Assembly: GCA_958346165.1 (NCBI GenBank)
Contig: CATVQO010000046.1
Location: 1 to 10,383, forward strand
Direction: 5' to 3'
Length of the DNA: 10,383 nt
Origin: an uncultured Collinsella sp.
GTDB lineage: Bacteria; Actinomycetota; Coriobacteriia; Coriobacteriales; Coriobacteriaceae
Both the position numbers and the translations under genes were made by a program. The notes beneath the pieces are model-generated. The model ran no database searches. It was not told where the DNA came from and saw only the letters and a program-made list of their open reading frames with translations. Of the stretch, positions 1-10,383 are shown one piece after another. The stretch's first letter is position 1; every line of letters begins with the position of its first letter.

Positions 1-23
1 CCGGATTCGTGTCTGCGCGAAAA

Positions 24-205
24 CGAAGGTGAATACTTTTCCGCGAAGTGAACGACCTATTTTGGACCCCCGAAGCATCCACACTTTTTGACGCCAAAAC
101 TGCAGGGAAAACTCGACGAAACCGCAGGAAACGGCGTCCGAAAAGTGTCGATGCTTCGGGGGCTCGTTTTTACTCGTTCACTTCGCGGAAAAGTATTCAC
201 CTTCG
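24..205. repeat. 182-bp imperfect palindrome
   Basis: Bases 24-55 are a perfect 32-bp inverted match to 174-205. Further in, 67-79 pairs with 150-162 (13 bp) and 81-88 with 141-148 (8 bp), all about the same centre near 114.5. With a one-base shift, 90-95 pairs with 133-138. The innermost ~37 bases (96-132) hold two CTGCAGG/CCGCAGG-like copies. No convincing gene lies in it: the open frames that cross it have no ribosome site and no recognisable protein. It could be a dispersed intergenic repeat, a miniature mobile element or a protein-binding palindrome. The structure is plain in the sequence; its function is unknown. Confidence 0.8.
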
Positions 206-229
206 ATTCGCAAGGGCACTGCGTGAGTC

Positions 230-271
230 AAAAAAGCGGGCCGCGCCGGGGATTTTCGGCGCGGCCCGCTT
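230..271 (-). terminator. Rho-independent terminator of the dehydrogenase gene
   Basis: A 13-bp perfect GC-rich stem (AGCGGGCCGCGCC at 235-247 pairing with 258-270) has a 10-base loop. Read on the minus strand it is followed by six T residues (complement of 230-235). It lies about 40 bases past the stop codon of the minus-strand dehydrogenase, as an intrinsic terminator should. Confidence 0.88.
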
Positions 272-312
272 GGCATCGCGTTTAGATTCGCAAGGTTGCG
301 GCAGCCAGCGGC

Positions 313-1290
313 CTACTTTGCGTCGTAGGCCTCGGCGTCCCACCAGTCGAGCTGGGCGATGTTGTCGCGGATGTGCTGGCAGCTCTTGTGGAAGCCCTCG
401 AGCTCGTACTCGGACAGGTCGAGCGTGTAGACCTCCTCGACGCCCCCGGCGCCGATCACGCACGGCAGGGAGGTAAAGATGCCCTCCTCGCCATACTGGC
501 CGGTCATGAGCGTGGAGGCGGAAAGCACGGCGTGCTCGTTGTGCAGCACGGCGGCGCAGACGCGCGCGGCGGAGTTGGCGACGGCGTACTCGGTGCACTG
601 CTTGCCCTGGTAGGTCACATAGCCGCCCTTGCGCGCGAGCTCCTCGACCTCCATGTGGTCAAAGGCGTACTTGTCGGGGTTCTCGGCCTGAAGCTCGTTG
701 AGGCTCTTGCCGGCGATGGTCGCGGCCTTAAAGGCAGCCAGCTGGCTAAAGCCGTGCTCGCCAATCATGTAGGCGTCGATGGACTTGGGGCTCACGCCGA
801 CCTTCTTGGAGATCTCGGTGCGCAGGCGGGCGGAATCCAGACCGCAGCCCGAGCCGATGATCTTCTTGGGATCGTAGCCGGTCAGGTGCCACAGCTCGGT
901 GCACACGACGTCGCAGGGGTTGGAGATGCTCACGAAGATGCCGTCGAAGCCGGCGTCGACGATGCGCTTGGCAAAGGAGCGGGCGGCGTCGGTGGTAAAG
1001 AACAGCTCGCCGTCGCGGTTGCCAGCGGCCAGCGCGACCTTACCGGCGGCGTTGACGATGACGTCGCAGCAGGCCAGCTCCTCGTAGTGGTCGTAGCAGT
1101 TGACGATCTTGGTGTTATACGGGACAAACGAAAGGGAGTCGCGCAGGTCCTGGACCTCGGACGTCACCTTGGCCTCGTTGATATCGCACAGGTACAGCTC
1201 ATCGGCAATGCCCTGCATAAGCAGGCTGTTGGCGACATGTGCTCCTACGTGGCCCTGGCCGACCACACCGATCTTACGCGTCTGGTACAT
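313..1290 (-). CDS. L-lactate / L-2-hydroxyisocaproate dehydrogenase family protein
   Basis: NAD-dependent 2-hydroxyacid dehydrogenase of the lactate/malate dehydrogenase superfamily, cytosolic, expected to interconvert a 2-oxoacid and its L-2-hydroxyacid. Visible in the 325 residues: Rossmann motif GQGHVG (11-16), the acidic NAD-selecting Asp36 (DINE), SNPCDVV (123-129), the catalytic Asp152 and substrate-carboxylate Arg155 in LDSAR, and the catalytic His179 in GEHG. The substrate-specificity loop (about 83-96, GKVALAAGNRDGE) differs from the usual lactate dehydrogenase loop and resembles L-2-hydroxyisocaproate dehydrogenase, so the substrate may be a branched or bulky 2-oxoacid. I chose the ATG giving MYQTRK because an AAAGGA site lies 7 bases ahead of it; the frame stays open 13 codons further upstream. 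It is a single gene, divergent from metA, with its own terminator. Family assignment is secure; the exact substrate is not. Confidence 0.9.
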   Translation of the reverse strand: MYQTRKIGVVGQGHVGAHVANSLLMQGIADELYLCDINEAKVTSEVQDLRDSLSFVPYNTKIVNCYDHYEELACCDVIVNAAGKVALAAGNRDGELFFTTDAARSFAKRIVDAGFDGIFVSISNPCDVVCTELWHLTGYDPKKIIGSGCGLDSARLRTEISKKVGVSPKSIDAYMIGEHGFSQLAAFKAATIAGKSLNELQAENPDKYAFDHMEVEELARKGGYVTYQGKQCTEYAVANSAARVCAAVLHNEHAVLSASTLMTGQYGEEGIFTSLPCVIGAGGVEEVYTLDLSEYELEGFHKSCQHIRDNIAQLDWWDAEAYDAK

Positions 1291-1327
1291 ATATGTATCC
1301 TTTCGGCCGAGTTTTTCGCGTCGAACC

Positions 1328-1333
1328 ATTGTA
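1328..1333 (-). promoter_or_regulatory. Possible -10 box of the dehydrogenase gene
   Basis: TACAAT on the minus strand, 37 bases upstream of the chosen ATG of the dehydrogenase. No good -35 hexamer stands 16-18 bases upstream, so this is only a candidate. The rest of the 209-base divergent spacer to metA shows no clear plus-strand promoter and no recognisable methionine-type riboswitch. Confidence 0.35.
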
Positions 1334-1369
1334 GCGTCCTGCTACCACTTTGCTAGGCTAAAGCGCCAC

Positions 1370-1393
1370 AGATTTTGGGACATGCCTTAATCT
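1370..1393. repeat. Decayed copy of an AGATTTTGGGACATGCC hairpin
   Basis: AGATTTTGGGACATGCC followed by TTAATCT forms a weak stem (AGATT/AATCT). The same core, with one extra T, occurs on the minus strand inside the terminator of the M16C peptidase gene (4983-5019). This suggests a dispersed sequence family, here degenerate and without a T-run. Based on only two copies in the window. Confidence 0.4.
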
Positions 1394-1499
1394 CTACTTT
1401 TGGAGTGATTTGGCCGCTGACGGCATCGCTGGGCGATGTACTCGCGCGGATGGGGCCGCTCGTTGTACCATAGCTGCAACTGACTCGTAAGGAGTATCC

Positions 1500-2426
1500 A
1501 TGCCCATTCGCATTCCCGACGCCCTCCCTGCCGCCGCGCAGCTCGAGAGCGAGAACATCTTTGTCATGACCGAGTACCGCGCGCTGCACCAGGACATCCG
1601 CCCGCTGCGCGTGCTCATCCTCAACCTCATGCCCACCAAGATCGCCACCGAGACGCAAATCATGCGCAAGCTCTCCAACACGCCGCTGCAGGTGGAGGTG
1701 GACCTGCTGCGCACCAAGACGCACGAGGCCACGCATGTGAGCGCCGGCCACCTGGAGACGTTTTACCGCACGTTCGACGACATCCGCGACATCCACTACG
1801 ACGGTCTAATCATCACGGGCGCGCCGGTGGAGCAGATGCCGTTCGAGGAGGTCGACTACTGGCCCGAGCTCTGCCAGATCATGGATTGGTCCACCACGCA
1901 CGTGCACTCTACGCTGCATATTTGTTGGGGCGCGCAGGCCGGCCTGTATCACCACTACGGTATTCAGAAGCACGACCTGCCGGCAAAGACGAGTGGCGTG
2001 TTTGAGCATTATCTGGTGAAGCCGCAAAGCCCGCTGGTCCGCGGCTTTGACGACCGTTTCTATGCCGTGCATTCGCGCAACACCGATGTGCGCCGCGAGG
2101 ACGTGGAGGCCGAGCCGCAGCTCGAGGTCGTGGCCGTGTCCGACGAGGTGGGCCTGTACATCGTCAAGTCGACCGACAGCCGTCGCTTCTTTGTCTTTGG
2201 CCATCCCGAGTACGATACCGACACGTTGCGCCTGGAGTACGAGCGCGACGTGAAGCGCGGACTCAACCCCCAGGTTCCGGCGCATTACTTCCCGAATGAC
2301 GACCCCACGGCCGAGCCGCGCAACGTCTGGCGCAGCCAGGCTCAGCTGTTCTACACCAACTGGCTCAACTACTACGTCTACCAGACCACGCCCTACGACC
2401 TGGCCCGCGCCGGCGAGGAGCACTAG
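1500..2426 (+). CDS. metA: Homoserine O-acetyltransferase (MetA/MetAA family)
   Basis: Catalyses acyl transfer from acyl-CoA to the hydroxyl of L-homoserine, the first committed step of methionine synthesis, in the cytosol. The 308 residues match the MetA family over the whole length, ending in the typical [15 protein letters not shown]. The catalytic nucleophile Cys142 (HICWGAQAG) and the His235/Glu237 pair (GHPEYD) are at the family's canonical numbers. Position 111 is Glu (TGAPVEQ). Known work on MetA links Glu111 to acetyl-CoA use and Gly111 (as in Escherichia coli) to succinyl-CoA, so O-acetylhomoserine is the likely product. The ATG is preceded by AAGGAG with 5 bases of spacing. It stands alone, divergent from the dehydrogenase; the hairpin at 2521-2591 is its likely terminator. 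No riboswitch was recognised in the leader. Confidence 0.95.
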
Positions 2427-2468
2427 GCTGCGGCCGTGGTTGCGACTGTGGCTGTGCTCGCGGCGTGA

Positions 2469-2584
2469 CGAGCGTGGATTTTCGGACACACGAGCGTGGA
2501 TTTTCGGACGTTTACAAATCGAGCGTGGATAATCTCCCACTTTTGGCTTGAAACTAGACTCAAAACGGGAGATTATCCACGCTC
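2469..2584. repeat. 116-bp direct repeat, copy 1 (upstream of AbiEi-like gene)
   Basis: Contains two 19-bp units CGAGCGTGGATTTTCGGAC (2469-2487, 2491-2509) starting 22 bases apart. A third, changed unit (from 2520, 29 bases later) forms the left arm of an 18-bp-stem hairpin. The block aligns without gaps to 3919-4034 at roughly 80% identity (about 93 of 116 counted by eye), in the same orientation. The two copies bracket the AbiEi-like gene 1450 bases apart. Confidence 0.85.
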
Positions 2585-2591
2585 ATTTTTT
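2521..2591 (+). terminator. Hairpin plus T-run after metA
   Basis: A perfect 18-bp stem, GAGCGTGGATAATCTCCC (2521-2538) with 2567-2584, has a 28-base loop and is followed by A then six T (2586-2591). It is the first strong terminator-like structure after the metA stop codon, 94 bases downstream, though the loop is large and the stem is shared with the repeat family, so termination may be incidental. Confidence 0.6.
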
Positions 2592-2879
2592 ATATGTAGA
2601 TGCCGATGGCTCGGCTAAGAGGCGGTGCGTGCAGAAGCAAAGTCGCATTTGGCGTGGTCTTGAATCTCGACGGGTTTTTCTTTCTGATAATCCAATGGAC
2701 CAAGGCATCGAATTGTGGAGACAGGGACCTCTCGACAACCGCCCTACCTGCAGATATAAGTCATCAGCCTAAAACGTCCAAAACCGTCAAGCATTTGGTC
2801 AGTGCCTGGACGGTATTTGGTCAGACTTCGCATGAAACCGTCTGGTACGTTTGCGCCGTTCCAAGATTTGGGAGGCGAC
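2592..2879. promoter_or_regulatory. Leader of the AbiEi-like gene with dyad and direct repeats
   Basis: This 288-base stretch has no convincing gene. Near its 3' end, CCAAAACCGTC (2778-2788) is an inverted near-match to GACGGTATTTGG (2809-2820). ATTTGGTCAG occurs twice, at 2793-2802 and 2815-2824, 22 bases apart. AAACCGTC recurs at 2781-2788 and 2835-2842. Such clustered repeats just ahead of a winged-helix protein could be its own operator, as is known for AbiEi antitoxins; that role is inferred. A TGATAAT string (about 2685-2691) is a possible -10 box without a well-spaced -35. Confidence 0.45.
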
Positions 2880-3842
2880 ATGGGAAACATGACGGCGAAT
2901 CAAAGACTTAGAAGTCACATTAAAGCATGCGAACAGCAGATGAGTTGCGTGTACGCGCGCACGGCGGCGGAGGCAAAGCAGATTGAGCGGCGGGTGGCGG
3001 CGGGAAGTCTAGAGGCGGTCATGCCGGGGCTGTATGCGCGTCCGGATTATTGGTCCGAGCTCAAGTTTCGGCAGCGTTATCTGCATCGGGTACGGGCCCT
3101 TGCGCAAAAGCATCCCGACTGGACGTTTTGCTCCTATACGGCGGCTGTTATCTATGGCCTTTCGGTTTCGCATGCCAATTTGACGCACATCCATATCGCC
3201 GCGGCGCCGGCGCAATCGACGACGCCCGGCTCTCGGGTGATTCGCCATCGTTATGCTCGTCAAACACGGGCAATCCAGATGGATATTGCCGTGACCGATA
3301 TCGATCAGACGATTGCGGATTGCCTGGTCGATGCGTCGTTTGTCGAGGGACTGATCATTGCGGACTCAGCGCTTCATGAGCAGCTGTTGTCGATGGAGCA
3401 TCTTGTTGAGACTGTCGACAATCTTGGCCTGAATCGTCGTGGTGTTGTGACGGCGCGCAGGGTTGCGCGGTGTGCCGATGGACTGTCGGAAAGCGGCGGC
3501 GAGTCCAAGGCACGCGCGCTGATGATCGAGCGCGGCTGGCAGACGCCGGAGCTGCAAGTTGAGCTGTTCGACCCAGTTGAGCCGGGACGGCCATATCGCG
3601 TTGACTACTTGTGGCGCGTGGGCGACCGGCTGATTATCGGTGAGTTCGACGGATTCGTTAAAAGCGAGAAAGCGGCGGAGGAGGGCAAGCTCGCAAAGGC
3701 GCAATTTGATGAACGTCAGCGCGAGTCGAGGCTTTCGCTGCTTGATAACTGCAAAATCGTGCGCTTGTGCTGGGATGATCTGAGGGACCCGTCAAAGCTC
3801 GATCGCAAACTCAAGGTTGCCGGCGTGCCGCGTGTGTGCTGA
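2880..3842 (+). CDS. AbiEi-like winged-helix protein with C-terminal nuclease-like (DUF559/Vsr-type) domain
   Basis: The 320 residues have the layout of the actinobacterial 'type IV toxin-antitoxin AbiEi family antitoxin domain' proteins. An N-terminal winged helix (about 15-55, ending ERRVAAGSLEAVMPGLYAR) is followed by a middle region with CSYTAAVIYGLSV (84-96) and VTDIDQTIADCLVD (138-151). A C-terminal restriction-endonuclease-like domain spans about 200-305. Its candidate acidic residues are Glu208 (GGESKAR), Asp242 (RVDYLW) and Glu255/Asp257 (IGEFDG), and it ends in the family's KIVRLCWDDL. I chose ATG 2880 because GGGAGG lies 4 bases upstream; the frame extends to a GTG at 2802 without a site. 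No AbiEii nucleotidyltransferase toxin is adjacent, so it is an orphan. Codon use looks less GC-rich than its neighbours, and direct repeats bracket it, both hints of acquisition. Activity is not established: it may be a regulator, a nuclease or both. Confidence 0.8.
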   Translation: MGNMTANQRLRSHIKACEQQMSCVYARTAAEAKQIERRVAAGSLEAVMPGLYARPDYWSELKFRQRYLHRVRALAQKHPDWTFCSYTAAVIYGLSVSHANLTHIHIAAAPAQSTTPGSRVIRHRYARQTRAIQMDIAVTDIDQTIADCLVDASFVEGLIIADSALHEQLLSMEHLVETVDNLGLNRRGVVTARRVARCADGLSESGGESKARALMIERGWQTPELQVELFDPVEPGRPYRVDYLWRVGDRLIIGEFDGFVKSEKAAEEGKLAKAQFDERQRESRLSLLDNCKIVRLCWDDLRDPSKLDRKLKVAGVPRVC

Positions 3843-3867
3843 GGCGGTTGCAGAGCGTTGAGCCGCA

Positions 3868-4034
3868 CGAGCGTGGAAATCCGAACGGACGAGTGTGGAA
3901 ATCTGGACGCGCATTGGTTAAGCGTGGATTTTCGGACACACGAGCGTGGATTTTTGGACGCTTGTTGAATGAGCGTGGATAATCTCCCGTTTTTGACTCG
4001 TAAGGGGGCTCAAAGTGGGAGATTTTCCACGTTC
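3868..4034. repeat. Five-unit GAGCGTGGA array with hairpin (direct repeat copy 2)
   Basis: Five 19-bp units start at 3868, 3890, 3919, 3941 and 3970, so the starts are 22, 29, 22 and 29 bases apart: a 51-bp double unit repeated. The first two units are diverged (GTGGAAATCCGAAC, GTGGAAATCTGGAC). The last forms the hairpin arm GAGCGTGGATAATCTCCC (3971-3988), pairing with 4017-4034 with one mismatch and one G-T pair. Bases 3919-4034 are the partner of the repeat at 2469-2584. The array lies between the convergent AbiEi-like gene and cyclo-ligase gene; the hairpin could serve both as a terminator but has no T-run on either side. Confidence 0.85.
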
Positions 4035-4060
4035 ATCTTGCGGGTGCGATACAACGGCGA

Positions 4061-4657
4061 TTAGGCGCTGACGATGTGGGGTAGCGGCAGGTCGTGTGCG
4101 TCGGTGGGTACGTGGTCGACACGCTGTTCGTCAAAGGCGATGCCGATGATTTGACATACGGGTGAGAGCATGGGCAGGTAACGGTCGTAGCAGCCGCCGC
4201 CATAGCCCAGGCGCGCGCCGGCGCGGTCGAATGCTACGAGCGGCGCGATAATCATGTCGAGAGCTTCGGCAGGCACGATAGGGAAGCGGCTGCTGTCGAT
4301 GTCCATGGCCGTGAAGGCCCGCGTGGGGTGGGCGATAAACGGAGCCGCGGAGGCATCGCCGGCGGCAACTGCCCGCATGCACATGCGCTGGCCACAAGCT
4401 GCGGCGTCTGTTGCCGAGAGCATGCACGGATAGGCCACGCGCCAGCCGCGTTTGGCGGCCGCAGCGGCAAACGCGGCTGGGTCGACCTCGGAGCCCATCG
4501 CGGCATAGATGGCAACGGTGTGCGGCGCCGCGGCATCCAAGCGATCCAACAGCTCAACAAGCCGCGCACAGATAACGGCAGACTTCGCTGCTCGCACATC
4601 CAAATCAATCGCATCGCGCCGGGCAATCACCGCCTGCCGCAATCCATCCTTGTCCAT
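4061..4657 (-). CDS. fthC: 5-formyltetrahydrofolate cyclo-ligase
   Basis: ATP-dependent conversion of 5-formyltetrahydrofolate to 5,10-methenyltetrahydrofolate, a cytosolic one-carbon repair step. The 198 residues have the family's usual length and marks: an N-terminal basic helix (LRQAVIARRDAI, 6-17), YAAMGSEVDP (51-60), the phosphate-binding LGYGGGCYDRY (150-160, commonly GYGGGYYDR, here Cys at one position), and the C-terminal DLPLPHIVS. The chosen ATG has AGGAGG 5 bases upstream (4663-4668). A TTG nine codons further upstream lies in frame, but the ribosome site falls inside that extension. It is apparently monocistronic; the upstream M16C gene on the same strand ends 368 bases away behind its own terminators. 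Annotation is secure. Confidence 0.93.
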   Translation of the reverse strand: MDKDGLRQAVIARRDAIDLDVRAAKSAVICARLVELLDRLDAAAPHTVAIYAAMGSEVDPAAFAAAAAKRGWRVAYPCMLSATDAAACGQRMCMRAVAAGDASAAPFIAHPTRAFTAMDIDSSRFPIVPAEALDMIIAPLVAFDRAGARLGYGGGCYDRYLPMLSPVCQIIGIAFDEQRVDHVPTDAHDLPLPHIVSA

Positions 4658-4673
4658 CCCAACCTCCTCTAGC

Positions 4674-4712
4674 AAACCTGCCAAAAAGGGACAGGTTTAT
4701 TTTGGCAGGTTT
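4674..4712. repeat. 13-bp inverted repeat in the cyclo-ligase leader
   Basis: AAACCTGCCAAAA (4674-4686) is perfectly repeated inverted at 4700-4712 around a 13-base loop that contains GGGACAGG. It ends 5 bases short of the AGGAGG of the cyclo-ligase. In the transcript it would form a hairpin right before the ribosome site, so a translational or operator role is possible but unproven. Confidence 0.6.
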
Positions 4713-4728
4713 TATCTGGGTAAACAGC

Positions 4729-4766
4729 AAAAACAACCACGAAGGGGACACACGCACCTTCGTGGT
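4729..4766 (-). terminator. Second minus-strand terminator upstream of the cyclo-ligase
   Basis: ACCACGAAGG (4736-4745) pairs with CCTTCGTGGT (4757-4766), 10 bp with an 11-base loop. On the minus strand it is followed by TGTTTTT (complement of 4729-4735). It would stop read-through from the M16C peptidase gene before the cyclo-ligase. Confidence 0.6.
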
Positions 4767-4789
4767 GGTCTGTGCTGTGATGGGCGTCT

Positions 4790-4947
4790 GCGGCGGTTTG
4801 TCTCGATCTGTAACAGTAACTCGGCAAAATTGGACTTAGATGTTACAGATTGAGACAAAAGGTCGGCGTCGTCTGGAAACGTCTCGATCTGTAACATCTG
4901 GAGCCGATATTGCCGTTTAGATGTTACAGATCGAGACAAACCGCCGC
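4790..4947. repeat. 158-bp compound palindrome of four TCTCGATCTGTAACA half-sites
   Basis: Bases 4790-4815 are a perfect 26-bp inverted match to 4922-4947. Inside are two more half-sites, at 4841-4859 and 4881-4899, giving the order forward, inverted, forward, inverted. Neighbouring half-sites also pair as two separate hairpins: 4797-4815 with 4841-4859 (19 bp, one G-T), and 4881-4899 with 4919-4937 (19 bp, perfect). No coding potential is apparent. It lies in a 368-base gap between the M16C and cyclo-ligase genes. Confidence 0.85.
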
Positions 4948-4978
4948 GGTGGGCTGCGCCGCCCCGCTCAAGCCGCAG

Positions 4979-5019
4979 AAAAAAGGTAGATTTTCGGGCA
5001 TGTCCCAAAAATCTACCTT
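4979..5019 (-). terminator. Rho-independent terminator of the M16C peptidase gene
   Basis: AAGGTAGATTTT (4983-4994) pairs with 5008-5019, and after one mismatch GGG (4996-4998) pairs with CCC (5004-5006). On the minus strand the stem is followed by a run of T (complement of 4979-4984). It starts 7 bases after the stop codon of the M16C gene. Confidence 0.85.
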
Positions 5020-5025
5020 GGTGCG

Positions 5026-8000
5026 TTAGCCCAGCAGGTCGACTACGTTGAAGCCGGCGTTGCTCTTGGCGATGACGTCGCGGCCGCCAAAGACGCAGGT
5101 GGGTGACTCGGCTGCGATGCGCGTTACGTCGGCGCCGAGCGAGCGAAGCTCACCGGGCGTGGCGGCGAGCATCTGGGCGCGGCGCTCCTCGCGCGCATGC
5201 GGATCGAGCCCGGCCAGGTAGGTCGTGTTGCGGCGCTTGGTGAGCGCGTACGGCTTCACCGGCGCGTCCATGCCGCTCACGCAGCTCACGATAAAGCCCT
5301 CAAAGGCGGCCTCGTCGGGATCAAAGCTGCCGAGCCATTCGCCCGCGCGCGCCACGCGCTCAATCGAGGGGTCGATTGCCGGGTCGCGGTAGGTGTAGAA
5401 CGCCGCCTGACGCTCGCCGGCCGCGCGGAATCCGCAGCCGTACGCGCCGCCCTTCACGCGGATCTCGTTCCACAGGTAGTCGTAGGAGAGCGCGTTGGCA
5501 GCTACGGCCCAAGCGCCCGTCACGTCAATGCCCAGACGGCGCGGGTCGCACGCGCGCGCCGCAAAGCAGATATCGCTGGGGATGACAAAAGCCTCGTGAC
5601 GGTCGCGCGGCGTCGGCACCACGAGCGCGTTGCGGCCGGCATCGGCGCCGTCGCCCGCGCCAAGCCCCAGGTCGCCCGCGGCATCCCAGTACGCGTCAAA
5701 GTCCTCATCGCTGCCGGTAAAGCTTGCCAGGCAGCCGTCGGCCACAAAGATGCGCTCTGCCAGCTCGGCAAGCTTGGCACGCAGGTCGTCCAGTCGCTCG
5801 TCAAAGTGGTCGAGCAGATCGCGCAGGAACAGGTAGAAGTCCACGCCCGAAAGCTGCTCGCGCACCACGGCCGAAGGTGAGCCGTAGCTCATCGCGCGAC
5901 CGAGCGCCGCCGAGTGGCCGTTGTTGATAAAGCCCTGCTCAAGCCCAATGCGAATCTGCGTAAGCACGTCGCGCACGCGGTCGGCGTCGGCATCGAGCAA
6001 CAGCGTGCTCGACCACACCTCGCGCGGCAGGCTCGCCAGCGCGTCGATCTTTTCGGACAGGGCGCCGGCGCTCACCAGCAGGTAGGGGCGCACGCCGTCC
6101 ACTTCGGGCTGCGTCATGACCTCGGTCGTAAAGCTCAAAAAGCCGAGCTTGCCAGCGAGCAAGTTGTCGAGTTCCTCGGCCGAATGCTCGCGCGTGGGCA
6201 GCTGCTTGAGCAGGCGGCAGAGCAGCGTCACGTAGGGCAGGTCCTCAAATGCGACGCGGCTCAGGTCGAAGTACTGCATGGCGTAGGCCAGGCGGTTGGT
6301 GGGGATGCCGTGGCGCAGGCAGGGGATGGGCGCGGTCGTGTCCACAACGAGCGGCGGCTCGGGGCGCGCCTCGCCAATGTCGGATACACGCAGGCGCGGC
6401 AGCGTGGCCTTGTCCTCGGGCGTGTCCTCGGCCTCCTGCGCGGCACGCAGCACGGCCGTGCGCTCGACCACGTCGGCCAGCTCGGCATCGGTCATGGCAT
6501 CGCGCTTGGCAGCCAGCTCGGCAGCTTCGGCACCCTCCGCACCCTCGGCAGCGTCCACCGGAACCAGCTCGACCAGCGCCATATGGTCGTTTTCCAGCAC
6601 CAGCTCGCGCAGCAGGTCCTCAAAATAGCTGCCGTCCAGCTCATCGCGCAGTTCCTCGTACACCGGGCCGTACTTGAGTGCCAGCGTCGCGGAGTCGTCA
6701 TCGTAGAGCCAGGTGCTCAGCGCGTCGCACGCAATGGCCACGCCGTCGGCGATGCCATAGTCGCGCTGGCGCAGGTCGTACTCGTTGCTGCTGATGATGG
6801 CCTCTAGGCGCTCGCGCGGAACGCCGTGCTCACACAGGTCGCGGCAGGCGTCCTGGAACACGCGGCGCAGCTCGCGCGCTACGCCGGGCTGCGCATTTTG
6901 CAGCATGATGAGCTCGTAGGGCTGCAGGCTCTCGGCTGCGGTGTAGCTCACTACGTTGCCGCCCAGGCCTGCCGCCAGAATGGCCTTCTTAACCGGTGCT
7001 TCGTTGGAGCCCAGCAGTGCCTCGAACAGGATATCCGCCGCGATCGTGCGCTTGCGGTCGAGCGCGCTGCCCAGCACCAGACCCAGGCCTACCAAGGCGT
7101 TCTCGGGCGTGGTTGCCATCTCGACGCGCTTATACTCGCAGGTCACAGGCTCCTGCACGTCCAGCGGATTGGGCGCCAGCGTGGACGGGTCCTCGCCGGC
7201 GGCAACGGCAGCGTCCATGCGGCGGCTCGCGGCACTCGGCTGCGACAGATAGCGCTCGTCCAAAAACGCCAACGCGCGGTCCACGTCCAGGTCGCCGTAG
7301 AGCGTGATGTAGGAGTTGGAAGGATTGTAGTGGCGCGCGTGCGTGTCCAGGAACTGCTCGTAGGTGAGCGCGGGAATCGCGCGCGGGTCGCCGCCGCTCT
7401 CGTGCGCATAGGCGGTGTCGGGATAGAGCGCGGCGTTGACGGCGTCGTCCAGCACGCTCATGGGGTCGGACAGCGCGCCCTTCATCTCGTTGAACACCAC
7501 GCCGTTATAGCGCAGCGTGCCCTCGCGCAGGCTCGCGGAGCTGCCGTCGCCCTCGGCGCCCTCCGGCAGGTCCAGCTCGTAGTGCCAGCCCTCCTGCTCA
7601 AAAATGGTGGGCTTGGTGTAGATGGCCGGGTTGAACACCGCGTCCAGGTACACGTCCATCAGGTTGTACAGATCCTGCTCGTTGGTGGTGGCAACGGGGT
7701 AGATGGTCTTGTCGGGGTAGGTCATGGCGTTGAGGAACGTCTGCATGGAGCTCTTGATCAGGTCGACAAACGGCTCCTTGACGGGGAACTTGGCCGATCC
7801 GCACAGCACCGAGTGCTCAAGAATATGGAACACGCCGGTGGAATCGGCCGGCGGCGTCTTAAAGCCAATGGCAAAGGCCTTGTTTTCGTCGTCGCACGCC
7901 AGGTACAGCAGGCGAGCGCCCGATGCGGTGTGGCGCAGCACGTAGGCGTCCGAGTCGAGCTCGGGCACGGTCTCGCAGCGCTCGACGGCAAAACCGTGGC

Positions 8001-8064
8001 AGGTGGTACCGGGCACCAGCAGCGCGGCAGCAGCGGCGCGCGGGTCGGTTGAGGTGGTGGGCAT
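5026..8064 (-). CDS. M16C family zinc metallopeptidase (presequence-protease-like)
   Basis: A 1012-residue zinc peptidase of the insulinase superfamily, subfamily M16C, which degrades peptides inside a two-halved chamber. The inverted zinc motif HxxEH is His80-Ile-Leu-Glu83-His84 (FHILEHSVLCGS), with Glu83 as catalytic base. The likely third zinc ligand is Glu193 in YNGVVFNEMKGA. The block VKEPFVDLIKSSMQTFLNA and TYPDKTIYPVATTNEQD are highly typical of PreP-type enzymes. A charged, Ala/Glu-rich helical stretch near the middle fits the M16C-associated linker, and the C-terminal half carries the second, inactive M16 unit. No signal peptide is seen, so it is probably cytosolic. The chosen ATG has AAAGGAG 7 bases upstream; 58 further codons are open upstream without a good site. 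It stands alone, divergent from the GntR gene, with its own terminator. Substrate unknown. Confidence 0.93.
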   Translation of the reverse strand: MPTTSTDPRAAAAALLVPGTTCHGFAVERCETVPELDSDAYVLRHTASGARLLYLACDDENKAFAIGFKTPPADSTGVFHILEHSVLCGSAKFPVKEPFVDLIKSSMQTFLNAMTYPDKTIYPVATTNEQDLYNLMDVYLDAVFNPAIYTKPTIFEQEGWHYELDLPEGAEGDGSSASLREGTLRYNGVVFNEMKGALSDPMSVLDDAVNAALYPDTAYAHESGGDPRAIPALTYEQFLDTHARHYNPSNSYITLYGDLDVDRALAFLDERYLSQPSAASRRMDAAVAAGEDPSTLAPNPLDVQEPVTCEYKRVEMATTPENALVGLGLVLGSALDRKRTIAADILFEALLGSNEAPVKKAILAAGLGGNVVSYTAAESLQPYELIMLQNAQPGVARELRRVFQDACRDLCEHGVPRERLEAIISSNEYDLRQRDYGIADGVAIACDALSTWLYDDDSATLALKYGPVYEELRDELDGSYFEDLLRELVLENDHMALVELVPVDAAEGAEGAEAAELAAKRDAMTDAELADVVERTAVLRAAQEAEDTPEDKATLPRLRVSDIGEARPEPPLVVDTTAPIPCLRHGIPTNRLAYAMQYFDLSRVAFEDLPYVTLLCRLLKQLPTREHSAEELDNLLAGKLGFLSFTTEVMTQPEVDGVRPYLLVSAGALSEKIDALASLPREVWSSTLLLDADADRVRDVLTQIRIGLEQGFINNGHSAALGRAMSYGSPSAVVREQLSGVDFYLFLRDLLDHFDERLDDLRAKLAELAERIFVADGCLASFTGSDEDFDAYWDAAGDLGLGAGDGADAGRNALVVPTPRDRHEAFVIPSDICFAARACDPRRLGIDVTGAWAVAANALSYDYLWNEIRVKGGAYGCGFRAAGERQAAFYTYRDPAIDPSIERVARAGEWLGSFDPDEAAFEGFIVSCVSGMDAPVKPYALTKRRNTTYLAGLDPHAREERRAQMLAATPGELRSLGADVTRIAAESPTCVFGGRDVIAKSNAGFNVVDLLG

Positions 8065-8116
8065 ATGCAGTCTCCTTTGACGCCCCAGCGGGGGCGAATC
8101 GAGTCGAATCTTCGAG

Positions 8117-8122
8117 AGTATA
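8117..8122 (-). promoter_or_regulatory. Possible -10 box of the M16C gene
   Basis: TATACT on the minus strand about 53 bases ahead of the chosen ATG, within the 280-base divergent spacer to the GntR gene. No convincing -35 stands at the right distance, so confidence is low. Confidence 0.35.
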
Positions 8123-8267
8123 CCCATATGGGGCCGCGGCTCTGCGGCGAACTGGAGACGATGTGGGTGGACTAGCCTAGCTAGGTTGATAACGAATGCC
8201 GCGGGTAGCCGCTGCACCCCACTAAAGTGAAATAACACCCCGTTTACCGAATCATTTAGGAAATATA

Positions 8268-8294
8268 TGGACTCCTAAAAAGTTCTAATACAAT
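8268..8294 (+). promoter_or_regulatory. Possible promoter of the GntR-family gene
   Basis: TACAAT at 8289-8294 with TGGACT at 8268-8273 (15-base spacer, shorter than ideal), in a markedly AT-rich stretch (about 8225-8335) that contrasts with the GC-rich surroundings. A loose dyad, TTAT-CTAGCT-ATAA, follows near 8300-8314 and could be an operator. The region, rather than the exact hexamers, is the supported part. Confidence 0.4.
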
Positions 8295-8344
8295 ATAAGT
8301 TATCTAGCTATAAGCTGCTGATTCCTTGCAAAGGTATGGTTGAT

Positions 8345-9049
8345 ATGGTTGAAGCAAATAGCGTTATCCCCCTGTACAAACAGATTGTTCGTGCGCTTTC
8401 TGATTCGATCGCCAACGGCACGTACCGCCCGGGAGATAAGCTTCCGACCGAGGCGGAGCTCATCGAGCAATTTGGCGTGAGCCGAATAACGGTTCGCTCC
8501 GCAATTAAAGAAATGGAAGATGCTGGGCTTGTTGAGAGGGCCCGCGGCAAGGGCACGTTCGTTTCGTCGGACACACAGATGTATGCCGCGGACGACCGTG
8601 AGAGCTTTACCCATTCGTGCCAGCTTGCGGGAAAACAGGCGTCTACCAGGGTTCTCGCAATGGGCTGGGACTTCCCAAGCCTGCGAGACGCGAAGTTCCT
8701 GGGCGTAGACGATACCCAAAAGGTATTGCGTAGTCGTCGTCTGCGCCTTGTGGATGACAAGCCCACGATGCTGGAAACCAATAGCTATTCCGCTGCGCTT
8801 TCTTTTTTGGAGCATGAATCCCTCGAGGATTCGCTGATGGCGGTACTCGATCGCCAGGGGATCAAGATGGGCCCCAACACGCGTACGCTCGAGGTCTGCT
8901 ATGCGAGCGAGCTCGAGGCGGCATACCTTAACGTGGAGCTGGACTCTCCGCTGCTTCTGTTTGTCGATAGACGTTATGCTCCAAGCGGCGAGCCGCTTTT
9001 CATCTCCCGTCAGGTGTACTGCACCGAGCGACTGAAGTTCTATCTGTAA
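8345..9049 (+). CDS. GntR/HutC-family transcriptional regulator with UTRA domain
   Basis: Ligand-controlled DNA-binding regulator. The N-terminal GntR winged helix spans about 5-74: PLYKQIVRALSDSI, GTYRPGDKLPTEAELIEQFG and VSRITVRSAIKEMEDAGLV, with the wing ERARGKGTFV. A UTRA ligand domain of the HutC type fills about 90-230 and ends in the family's FISRQVYCTERLKFYL. UTRA domains of this group commonly bind phosphorylated sugars or amino sugars. It sits just upstream of mannose-type PTS genes on the same strand, so it probably controls them and itself. ATG 8345 is preferred because AAAGG (8330-8334) lies 10 bases upstream; the in-frame ATG at 8336 is only one base from it. A terminator separates it from the PTS genes. 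The ligand cannot be read from the sequence. Confidence 0.92.
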   Translation: MVEANSVIPLYKQIVRALSDSIANGTYRPGDKLPTEAELIEQFGVSRITVRSAIKEMEDAGLVERARGKGTFVSSDTQMYAADDRESFTHSCQLAGKQASTRVLAMGWDFPSLRDAKFLGVDDTQKVLRSRRLRLVDDKPTMLETNSYSAALSFLEHESLEDSLMAVLDRQGIKMGPNTRTLEVCYASELEAAYLNVELDSPLLLFVDRRYAPSGEPLFISRQVYCTERLKFYL

Positions 9050-9056
9050 GCAAGGG

Positions 9057-9086
9057 CGGCCGTTCTGTAAAAGGAGCGGCCGTTTT
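9057..9086 (+). terminator. Terminator after the GntR gene
   Basis: CGGCCGTT (9057-9064) pairs with AGCGGCCG (9075-9082) with one G-T pair and a 10-base loop, followed by TTTT (9083-9086). It starts 8 bases after the regulator's stop codon. Confidence 0.7.
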
Positions 9087-9147
9087 ACCGACCAATTGTT
9101 ACCGTTCGCGGAATTAGAGAATTAACGCACCGCAAAAAGGAAATTGC

Positions 9148-9166
9148 TTATATACTTTGTTATGAC
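9148..9166 (+). promoter_or_regulatory. AT-rich shared element upstream of PTS EIIA
   Basis: TTATATACTTTGTTATGAC here closely resembles TTATATAAAGTATTATAAC at 10283-10301, ahead of the next transcription unit: TTATATA, five variable bases, TTAT, purine, AC. The overlapping TTGTTATGACAA (9158-9169) is a near-palindrome. The element is about 33 bases before the EIIA start, so it may be part of the promoter (TTGCTT at 9144-9149 as a possible -35) or an operator of the neighbouring GntR protein. Inference from two copies only. Confidence 0.45.
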
Positions 9167-9198
9167 AATATAGTACGTCTTATTGATATTGGAGAACT

Positions 9199-9618
9199 AT
9201 GAATAAGATATTGCTAGCGAGTCATGGTTATCTCGCCCAAGGTATGAAAAGCTCTCTGGAGATTCTGATGGGCGCCAACGACCGAATCGAGTGTCTGTGC
9301 GCCTATGTCGATGACGACACGAGGGATGTCGCAGCGCTTATCGATGCTTGGATGGAGTCGAAGGATCCGGCCGACACGTGGTTTGTCGTAACTGACATCT
9401 TTGGCGGTTCCGTAAACAACGAGTTCATCCAGAGGCAGGCCGCCGGATCGTTTACGTTGATCGCCGGAATGAACTTGCCGCTGCTGGTGGAAATGGTTAC
9501 ACAGCTGGACTTCCTGGATGCGGACAAGGCCAAAGCCGCGGTCGAGGGATCGCGTTCGTTTATCCAGCTTTGTGAGGCGGCGGATATGCTCGCCGATGTC
9601 GAAGAAGAAGAGTTCTAG
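9199..9618 (+). CDS. PTS mannose-family EIIA component
   Basis: Cytosolic phosphocarrier that accepts phosphate from HPr and passes it to the EIIB partner for uptake of a sugar through IIC/IID membrane subunits. The 139 residues match a stand-alone EIIA-Man domain: the phosphorylated His9 in LLASHGYLAQGM, and the conserved TDIFGGSVNN (65-74) with Asp66 near the active site. The C-terminus is acidic (DVEEEEF). The ribosome site GGAG lies 4 bases before the ATG. EIIB follows 62 bases downstream on the same strand, and the GntR regulator precedes it. The sugar cannot be told from this subunit; mannose-family systems also carry glucosamine, sorbose, fructose or glycated amino acids. Confidence 0.92.
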   Translation: MNKILLASHGYLAQGMKSSLEILMGANDRIECLCAYVDDDTRDVAALIDAWMESKDPADTWFVVTDIFGGSVNNEFIQRQAAGSFTLIAGMNLPLLVEMVTQLDFLDADKAKAAVEGSRSFIQLCEAADMLADVEEEEF

Positions 9619-9680
9619 CTCAAGCTTCAACGAATAATTCAATCCTGTCATTACCTTTATTACGTGTGGAGATGATTTTG

Positions 9681-10154
9681 ATGATTAAGCTTACGAGAGT
9701 TGATTACCGACTGATTCACGGCCAAGTTGCCATGTCTTGGACGCATGCGCTGGATGTCGATTGCATCCTGTGTGCCAGCGATGCCGTGGCAAAAGACGAC
9801 ATGAGAAAAGCCGCTTTGAGGCTGGCTCGTCCCAACGGCGTGAAGCTCGTCATAAAAGACGTAAACGCTGCTATCGAGGCGCTCAACAGCGGCGTCACCG
9901 ACAAGTATTCGCTGTTTATCATTGTCGAGACGATCGAGGATGCCTATCGCCTTGCTAAGGGTTGCAAAGACATCAAGGAGATCAATTTGGGCGGAACTCG
10001 AAAGACTCCCGAGACCACGCTTCATCCGACCCCCGCGATCTTTGCGACCGAAACCGATGCCGAGCATATCCAAGAGCTTGTCAACGATGGCGTGGTTATC
10101 GAAATCCGTCAGGTTCCCAATGACTCAAAGGTACTTGCCAAGGACGTTTTCTAG
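9681..10154 (+). CDS. PTS mannose/fructose/sorbose-family EIIB component
   Basis: Takes phosphate from EIIA and phosphorylates the incoming sugar at the IIC/IID transporter; cytosolic, membrane-associated through its partners. The 157 residues open with the family signature IKLTRVDYRLIHGQV, in which His13 is the phosphorylated residue. The later LGGTRKTPETTLHPTPAIFA and GVVIEIRQVPNDSK fit the EIIB-Man/Sor fold and length. The start ATG 9681 has GGAG 9 bases upstream; upstream in-frame ATG 9672 would abut the ribosome site. It follows EIIA, and a terminator comes next. IIC and IID are not in the window. Confidence 0.92.
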   Translation: MIKLTRVDYRLIHGQVAMSWTHALDVDCILCASDAVAKDDMRKAALRLARPNGVKLVIKDVNAAIEALNSGVTDKYSLFIIVETIEDAYRLAKGCKDIKEINLGGTRKTPETTLHPTPAIFATETDAEHIQELVNDGVVIEIRQVPNDSKVLAKDVF

Positions 10155-10203
10155 CTGGAAACATGCCATTGTCTAGCATTTATTAACCAGGTCCTCCTTT
10201 CTT

Positions 10204-10236
10204 AAGCCCGTCGACCATTTGATCGGCGGGCTTTTT
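10204..10236 (+). terminator. Rho-independent terminator after EIIB
   Basis: AAGCCCGTCGA (10204-10214) pairs with TCGGCGGGCTT (10223-10233) with one G-T pair and an 8-base loop, and runs into TTTTT. It lies 49 bases after the EIIB stop codon and separates EIIA-EIIB from the following gene. Confidence 0.85.
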
Positions 10237-10270
10237 ATTAAAGAAAAATCAAAAAAATCTGAAATAGTTC

Positions 10271-10301
10271 TTGCATAGTTAGTTATATAAAGTATTATAA
10301 C
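10271..10301 (+). promoter_or_regulatory. Promoter and palindrome ahead of the last gene
   Basis: TTGCAT (10271-10276), a 16-base spacer and TATTAT (10293-10298) make a reasonable sigma-70-type promoter. Overlapping it, GTTATA at 10282-10287 and TATAAC at 10296-10301 form a near-palindromic 20-mer, placed where a repressor would block the -10 region. The 19-mer 10283-10301 is the partner of the element at 9148-9166. Confidence 0.6.
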
Positions 10302-10348
10302 GTCATGGGATGAATGAAGGGTTCATCCAAGTGAGTTAGGAGTAAGGG

Positions 10349-10383
10349 ATGTTCAATTTCGATGAGCCTCGTTACGAGAAGGT
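10349..10383 (+). CDS. Start of a gene running off the window (N-terminus MFNFDEPRYEKV)
   Basis: ATG 10349 is preceded by AGGAG with 6 bases of spacing, downstream of a good promoter, and opens a frame that reaches the window edge after 11 full codons. Twelve residues are too few for a firm assignment. Next to mannose-family PTS genes and a UTRA regulator, a SIS-domain sugar-phosphate isomerase or deglycase is a plausible guess, as is a further PTS subunit. Confidence 0.6.
   Translation, partial: MFNFDEPRYEK

Follow-up and report, generated by a model that had tools for sequence, protein, structure and literature searches.

A nuclease-like gene and its matching palindromes in Collinsella suggest a partnership of enzymes with spreading DNA repeats

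A contig of an uncultured Collinsella sp. (CATVQO010000046.1; the stretch analyzed, positions 1 to 10,383, is termed the window herein) carries a gene for a protein that joins an AbiEi-like DNA-binding part to a nuclease-like domain, with a copy of the same palindrome-containing repeat on either side. Bracketing of this kind is a property of the AbiEi-nuclease protein family. Different protein groups have different palindromes, five of the six palindrome families searched genome-wide are dispersed, and the palindromes differ in presence or absence among strains and carry compensatory changes in their hairpin stems. We lean toward the explanation that the gene and its own palindrome family form a pair in which the protein recognizes the palindrome; a further step, in which the nuclease lets the hairpin spread to new sites, is put forward more tentatively. 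Binding or spreading of the palindromes by the protein is what we infer from these patterns.

The two direct repeats comprise 119 nucleotides (nt) each and lie at positions 2471 to 2589 and 3921 to 4039. They align without gaps, with identity at 97 of 119 positions (82%), and their starts are 1,450 nt apart. The initial annotation had described two blocks of equal length and orientation that are about 80% identical, spaced by 1,450 bp with only an AbiEi-like gene in between; the repeat search and the open reading frame (ORF) call agree with all of this and correct the limits (given there as 2469 to 2584 and 3919 to 4034) and the length. When the upstream block was placed without gaps along the window (excluding placements less than 119 nt from the block itself), the next best placement, at 3870, matched at 54 of 119 positions and overlapped the downstream block, and the best one clear of that block matched at 48 of 119. 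In each repeat, tandem units of GAGCGTGGATTTTCGGAC (or close variants) precede a hairpin with 18-nt arms. Two direct units (2470 to 2487 and 2492 to 2509, plus strand) mark the start of the upstream repeat, the hairpin of which (2521 to 2584) has the arms GAGCGTGGATAATCTCCC and GGGAGATTATCCACGCTC at 2521 to 2538 and 2567 to 2584. The arms of the downstream hairpin (3971 to 4034) lie at 3971 to 3988 and 4017 to 4034 and pair with one mismatch and one G-T. Folded as single-stranded DNA, the hairpins proved far more stable, with z values of −9.7 (upstream) and −5.4 (downstream) relative to shuffled sequence. Two diverged units of the GAGCGTGGATTTTCGGAC motif (74%) also lie directly 3′ of the gene (3867 to 3909, plus strand). 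An Rfam scan yielded nothing at the gathering level; the hairpins gave three microRNA matches, which scored far under that level and were taken as chance.

The one intact gene between the repeats runs from 2880 to 3842 on the plus strand (ATG at 2880, TGA at 3840 to 3842) and encodes 320 amino acids (aa), a length that is shared by most close homologues and backs the choice of the start codon. By fold, residues 5 to 200 (2892 to 3479) are AbiEi-like, and residues 205 to 317 (3492 to 3830) form a PD-(D/E)XK-type nuclease part resembling Vsr and the homing endonuclease I-Bth0305I. AbiEi and nucleases of the PD-(D/E)XK type are the best folds of the protein; Foldseek alone gave no match at an E value of 1e-3 or better, and the domain scores come from a second fold comparison. 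A PADLOC AbiEi match (1e-9) over residues 29 to 178 confirms the label AbiEi-like that had been given to the gene, and the fold bears out the nuclease-like C terminus proposed with it. In the nuclease part, E208, D242, E255, and D257 are invariant and K261 is nearly so. At first thresholds the protein had no match in NCBIfam or Pfam, and Pfam AbiEi_4 matches seven of 47 homologues (best, 4.5e-4). No transposase family was matched in the domain-family searches, and the Protein Data Bank holds no relative by sequence. The reading frame is free of stops in all eight relatives that carry the gene, and the dN/dS ratio of 0.118 (36 pairs) shows that the gene is under purifying selection. As had been noted, an AbiEii partner is missing: the neighbors are metA and, on the other strand, the gene for 5-formyltetrahydrofolate cyclo-ligase, and no AbiEii match was found in G001, the nearest genome, which has 50% of sampled 31-mers in common with the window. 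No protein match was found in 50,697 phage records, in viral contigs (patterns drawn from the window protein only), or in PHROG, and a plasmid collection gave a single match (34.5%) in a 900-kb Collinsella record; hence, there is no sign of a phage or small-plasmid vehicle.

A gene of the window type, at 93 to 97% identity, is present in eight of 58 relatives and in single copy, with one match of 93% or more per genome in all eight. The cyclo-ligase neighborhood was readable in 16 related genomes, eight of which have the gene between two repeats, while the other eight lack it. In seven of these eight empty sites, metA adjoins the cyclo-ligase gene with no repeat, and in the eighth (G013) one unit of about 20 nt and the right-hand boundary are left. 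The stretch missing from the empty genomes corresponds to about 2450 to 4050 of the window (limits by eye), and no target-site duplication was seen by eye. Since the repeats vary together with the gene, these data support the view that repeat, gene, and repeat behave as one unit that is either present or absent.

Although the initial annotation called the gene an orphan, it belongs to a widespread family, over which bracketing extends. A locus was scored as bracketed when blastn (1e-6) detected the same repeat to its left and to its right, no more than 700 bp away, and as testable when at least 300 nt were available on each side; a simple longest-ORF rule was used for ORF calling, and three overlapping sets were tested. 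In the first set (20 regions from the matches in relatives, including four loci already seen to be unbracketed), 14 of 19 recognized AbiEi-nuclease genes were bracketed, compared to eight of 260 other ORFs, one of which is an antisense reading of an AbiEi gene. The second set comprised 80 loci in named genomes, the best 80 of 305 confirmed matches, from Coriobacteriia, Bifidobacterium, and one record labeled "actinobacterium." Of its 76 testable loci, 57 were bracketed, compared to four of 432 neighboring ORFs and three of 128 size-matched ORFs (Fisher's p of 1e-53 and 5e-30, respectively). Counted by protein clusters at 60% identity, 28 of 42 were bracketed; with flanks of 1,500 bp the values were 31 of 42 clusters and 12 of 432 controls, and with flanks of 400 bp they were 25 of 42 and three of 432. 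The third set, 81 matches listed in the 58 relatives and treated as 80 loci, gave brackets at 59 of 75 testable loci and in 23 of 36 clusters.

Two other kinds of accessory gene served as controls. For AbiEii, 30 loci were taken from 34 matches, and three of the 29 with a usable ORF were bracketed (p of 2e-6 in comparison to 28 of 42 AbiEi-nuclease clusters); an upstream ORF, possibly AbiEi, adjoins the gene at 15 of the 29, two of these 15 being bracketed. For Fic genes (the best 30 loci of a longer list, 29 testable), brackets were found at 10 of 29, which becomes five of 24 (p of 7e-4) if six of the bracketed loci, a single orthologue, are counted once. Two single loci are recorded here as observations in their own right: an AbiEii gene with an adjoining upstream ORF (L340; G025:C1:140802) is bracketed by a 201-nt repeat with 83% identity, and in G014 a 226-aa ORF lies between two palindrome copies of the Collinsella tanakaei type (L283, about 400 to 1550).

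The palindromes differ from one protein group to the next. Among the 57 bracketed loci of the second set, they were common to 115 of 126 within-cluster pairs and to none of 1,470 between-cluster pairs. A single one of the 58 genomes contained the palindrome of G018, and no other has a gene of that cluster; the palindrome lies there at 15 sites or more (15 of 34 candidates were scored). G021 and G031, the genes of which are nearest to that of G018 (53% and 52% identity), lack both this palindrome and a bracket. The Gordonibacter/Paraeggerthella palindrome occurred as 38, 30, and 34 pieces in three genomes chosen as carriers of its cluster and in none of seven chosen as carriers of other AbiEi-nuclease clusters. 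For the C. tanakaei type, 11 sites were found in G023, and the carriers G023 and G024 had 22 and 16 pieces, compared to 4 to 8 in three genomes without a gene of the cluster, a difference for which kinship to the query is a confounder. The palindrome that accompanies a 379-aa protein family was detected in 21 of the 58 genomes, with 34 to 63 pieces in each of 17 and 2 or 3 in the other four; 14 of the 17 palindrome-rich genomes hold a gene of the 379-aa cluster, one of them broken. That frame, in G025 (L422; G025:C1:65083-66031), is interrupted by one TGA, and the palindromes of the family are still numerous there. One palindrome, initially noticed as an intergenic insertion of variable presence, turned out to bracket a fourth AbiEi-nuclease gene of G001, so that the four such genes found in this genome each have a palindrome of their own.

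The window-type repeat was found in 17 of the 58 relatives, all of the same genus and including all eight carriers of the gene; in G001 it occupies ten places, with one further match of 21 nt. Carriers had a mean of 20.6 matching pieces versus 14.1 in noncarriers (p of 0.04; the fragmentary G028 was excluded, and the counts of two carriers were limited to 15 scored places).

In the three families checked, copies avoid ORFs: their midpoints fell in ORFs of at least 100 aa at seven of 40 loci for the window family (30.8 expected from random points), one of 26 for the 379-aa family (19.4 expected), and one of seven for the G018 family (5.5 expected), with the loci not all being distinct, since some are the same place counted twice, orthologous places, or gene flanks. 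Dispersal held for five of the six families searched (the exception is the G022 type), with the palindromes scattered as inverted pairs and, in these three families, outside ORFs. Their number varies between strains. At 4790 to 4947 of the window are two hairpins of another family (GTCTCGATCTGTAACA), which brackets a second AbiEi-nuclease gene in Collinsella relatives. At this site, the window and five genomes have two hairpins, three genomes have one, and seven have none (for G032, the interval is incomplete in the locus read and the two-hairpin form was found by genome-wide search). From none to four copies per side accompany the 379-aa gene at loci that are mostly syntenic. Another intergenic insert was present in seven of the loci read and absent in two, and two gave no clear result. 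In L203, an insertion that carries a transposase gene interrupts this insert. This gene (about 8880 to 10300) lies in the palindrome loop and looks IS3-like, its protein having been read by eye.

The hairpin stems themselves show compensatory change. Among 17 copies of the Eggerthellaceae-type stem, eight pairs have changed on both sides, and covariation is 0.166, compared to 0.026 in shuffled alignments (0 of 500); the compensatory changes lie in the inner pairs, whereas the ten outer pairs (columns 5 to 14) have none. For 29 copies of the window-type stem, covariation is 0.065, compared to 0.031 after shuffling (0 of 500) and no more than 0.036 after sliding, and most of it comes from one exchange of C-G to A-T in seven copies.

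How a protein of this kind might act on its palindromes can be outlined from its two parts. According to excerpts of one study, AbiEi and Rv2827c are each specific for their own inverted repeats of 23 bp, with no binding to those of the other (PMC7319586), which makes it the simplest assumption that the AbiEi part recognizes the fixed outer bases of its own palindrome, a step that we consider likely. Nicking or cutting at the palindrome by the nuclease may follow, probably while the DNA there is extruded or single-stranded, and may allow copies of the hairpin to arise elsewhere; both of these steps are uncertain. Such copying would resemble REPIN-RAYT systems with an unrelated enzyme, a comparison suggested by a single-copy gene and by hairpins of one family that flank it, are dispersed, and also occur where the gene is missing. 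The initial annotation had supposed that the protein recognizes the repeats, and the family-wide pairing of gene and palindrome now gives this indirect support.

Several observations weigh against a pairing of gene and palindrome. No bracket was found in 14 of 42 clusters of the second set or in 13 of 36 of the third. Of the 126 within-cluster pairs, 122 look syntenic, so that shared sites confound the sharing of palindromes, and only one of the four nonsyntenic pairs shares its repeat; the sharing therefore mostly shows that the groups differ rather than that palindromes move along with their genes to other sites. The G022 type is not dispersed; besides the two copies that flank the gene, the search gave two weak matches. 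For the window type, nine of the 17 genomes with the repeat have no close gene of this type, and the difference in piece number vanishes when about four own-flank pieces per carrier are subtracted (p of 0.56), so the presence of the gene does not clearly raise the copy number. Stem pairs changed on both sides number 4 in this type versus 2.9 when shuffled (102 of 500), which is not unusual. In six genomes (loci L063, L064, L065, L078, and L228 to L233), copies of the window-type repeat also bracket a Fic gene, in a widely varying region close to a PTS IIA gene. The Fic site was considered as a second clean insertion and rejected, as its crr-side region differs widely among genomes. A repeat widespread beside unrelated genes, with no link to AbiEi-like genes, had been named beforehand as counterevidence; the first half of this is literally what was found, in the dispersed copies and the Fic brackets, whereas the link to AbiEi holds across the family.

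The Fic brackets in a variable region, the nine genomes with the repeat and without the gene, and the mostly syntenic sharing all speak for ordinary REP- or MITE-like palindromes spread by some other enzyme (for example, an HUH transposase), with AbiEi-nuclease genes merely sitting in repeat-rich variable slots. We consider this unlikely, as bracketing is rarer for other accessory genes (3 of 29 for AbiEii, 5 of 24 for Fic), gene and palindrome co-occur in the G018 and Eggerthellaceae types, and no palindrome was common to two protein groups among the 57 bracketed loci. In a regulator model, an AbiEi-type protein would control its own gene through the palindromes, which would serve as its operators (and perhaps as terminators), as well as other genes next to scattered copies, and its nuclease would have a separate function such as phage defense. 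Many palindromes have arms of similar length and lie outside ORFs where checked, and AbiEi and Rv2827c bind inverted repeats of 23 bp in their own promoters and autoregulate, as far as the excerpts of that study describe (PMC7319586). The loci listed, however, have copies both upstream (about 50 to 615 nt) and downstream (about 16 to 657 nt) of the gene, at widely varying distances and not just next to the promoter as operators would be, and palindrome number and presence vary among strains in a way unlike a fixed regulon, which makes such a regulator quite unlikely.

Two further alternatives concern the movement of the gene. A free-standing endonuclease might cut empty alleles and be copied in by repair as a selfish homing gene, the palindromes being by-products or marks of the donor site. 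Seven of the eight empty sites contain no palindrome, which therefore is probably not the homing target, and homing leaves both the dispersed palindromes without a gene and the separate palindrome of each family unexplained; we judge it improbable. The initial annotation had proposed a cassette that is gained or lost by homologous recombination between the two repeats and had named a single repeat copy in strains without the gene as what would support it. The repeats are indeed direct and 82% identical, the unit is variably present as a whole (eight sites with it and eight without), and the single unit and right boundary of G013 could be a deletion scar. Recombination would be expected to leave one whole repeat, however, and since seven of eight empty sites have none and G013 has only about 20 nt, this mechanism is not supported and appears highly improbable, while the repeat-bounded unit itself stands. 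We retain as the preferred reading an AbiEi-nuclease gene paired with its own palindrome family.

Two observations on the surroundings stand apart from this argument. Positions 21 to 208 of the window hold a pair of 35-nt inverted repeats that encloses a second inverted pair. In three genomes (L334 to L336, about 2950 to 3116), an AbiEii gene is preceded by similar sequence, and the ORF adjoining that gene is presumably AbiEi; no match to 21 to 208 was found among the AbiEi-nuclease flanks searched. Between the cyclo-ligase and an M16 peptidase gene, seven genomes (L083, L085 to L087, L089, L090, and L092), and not the window, have small ORFs, which we take to resemble HicA/HicB.

Compared to known systems, the window protein has the AbiEi fold in common with AbiE type IV toxin-antitoxins; it differs in having no adjoining AbiEii and an added nuclease domain, and bracketing repeats are uncommon at AbiEii loci. 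With I-Bth0305I, Vsr, and TnsA it has in common the homing-nuclease fold and conserved acidic residues, combined with another DNA-binding part and with no intron or interrupted gene. The EDxHD motif of I-Bth0305I-type homing endonucleases contains a His that is not evident in the window protein, which has E-x-D-G instead. Among the titles and abstract openings listed, mostly of openly available literature, there was no description of AbiEi-like nucleases with flanking palindromes.

The closest parallel in genomic arrangement is REPIN-RAYT (REPtron). As described in excerpts of three reports on Pseudomonas, E. coli, and other bacteria, a single-copy enzyme gene is flanked by its own palindromes, and the hairpins are dispersed, intergenic, specific to a family, and also present in genomes without the gene (PMC3116915, PMC3733652, PMC8049555); the window family has a single-copy gene, its own flanking palindromes, and dispersed hairpins, also where the gene is missing. 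In the excerpts of one of these reports, REP-like palindromes with a known enzyme partner pair with HUH-type RAYTs, and CGTC-tagged REPs have no known enzyme (PMC3733652). Unlike RAYTs, which are Y1/HUH tyrosine transposases, the enzyme here joins AbiEi to a PD-(D/E)XK-type nuclease, and unlike the REPs of RAYTs, which carry a GTAG tag, neither window hairpin has GTAG beside it on direct reading. REPINs in E. coli, as far as excerpts describe them, also differ from the window-type repeat, for which gene presence has no clear effect on copy number (PMC8049555). It is conceivable, if somewhat doubtful, that these loci of Coriobacteriia and Bifidobacterium form a new class of bipartite element, in which an AbiEi protein with a homing-like nuclease recognizes and propagates a private hairpin family. 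If so, a second, unrelated enzyme class would have the genomic signature of REPIN-RAYT, and partnerships of enzymes and palindromes would have arisen more than once. Orphan "AbiEi" genes might then have a role other than that of an antitoxin, several intergenic repeat families of Collinsella would be explained, and many pairs of nuclease and hairpin would be open to in vitro work. Such a class, with several pairs per genome (four in G001), might, in an equally tentative comparison, be convergent with REPIN-RAYT by way of metal-dependent PD-(D/E)XK chemistry.

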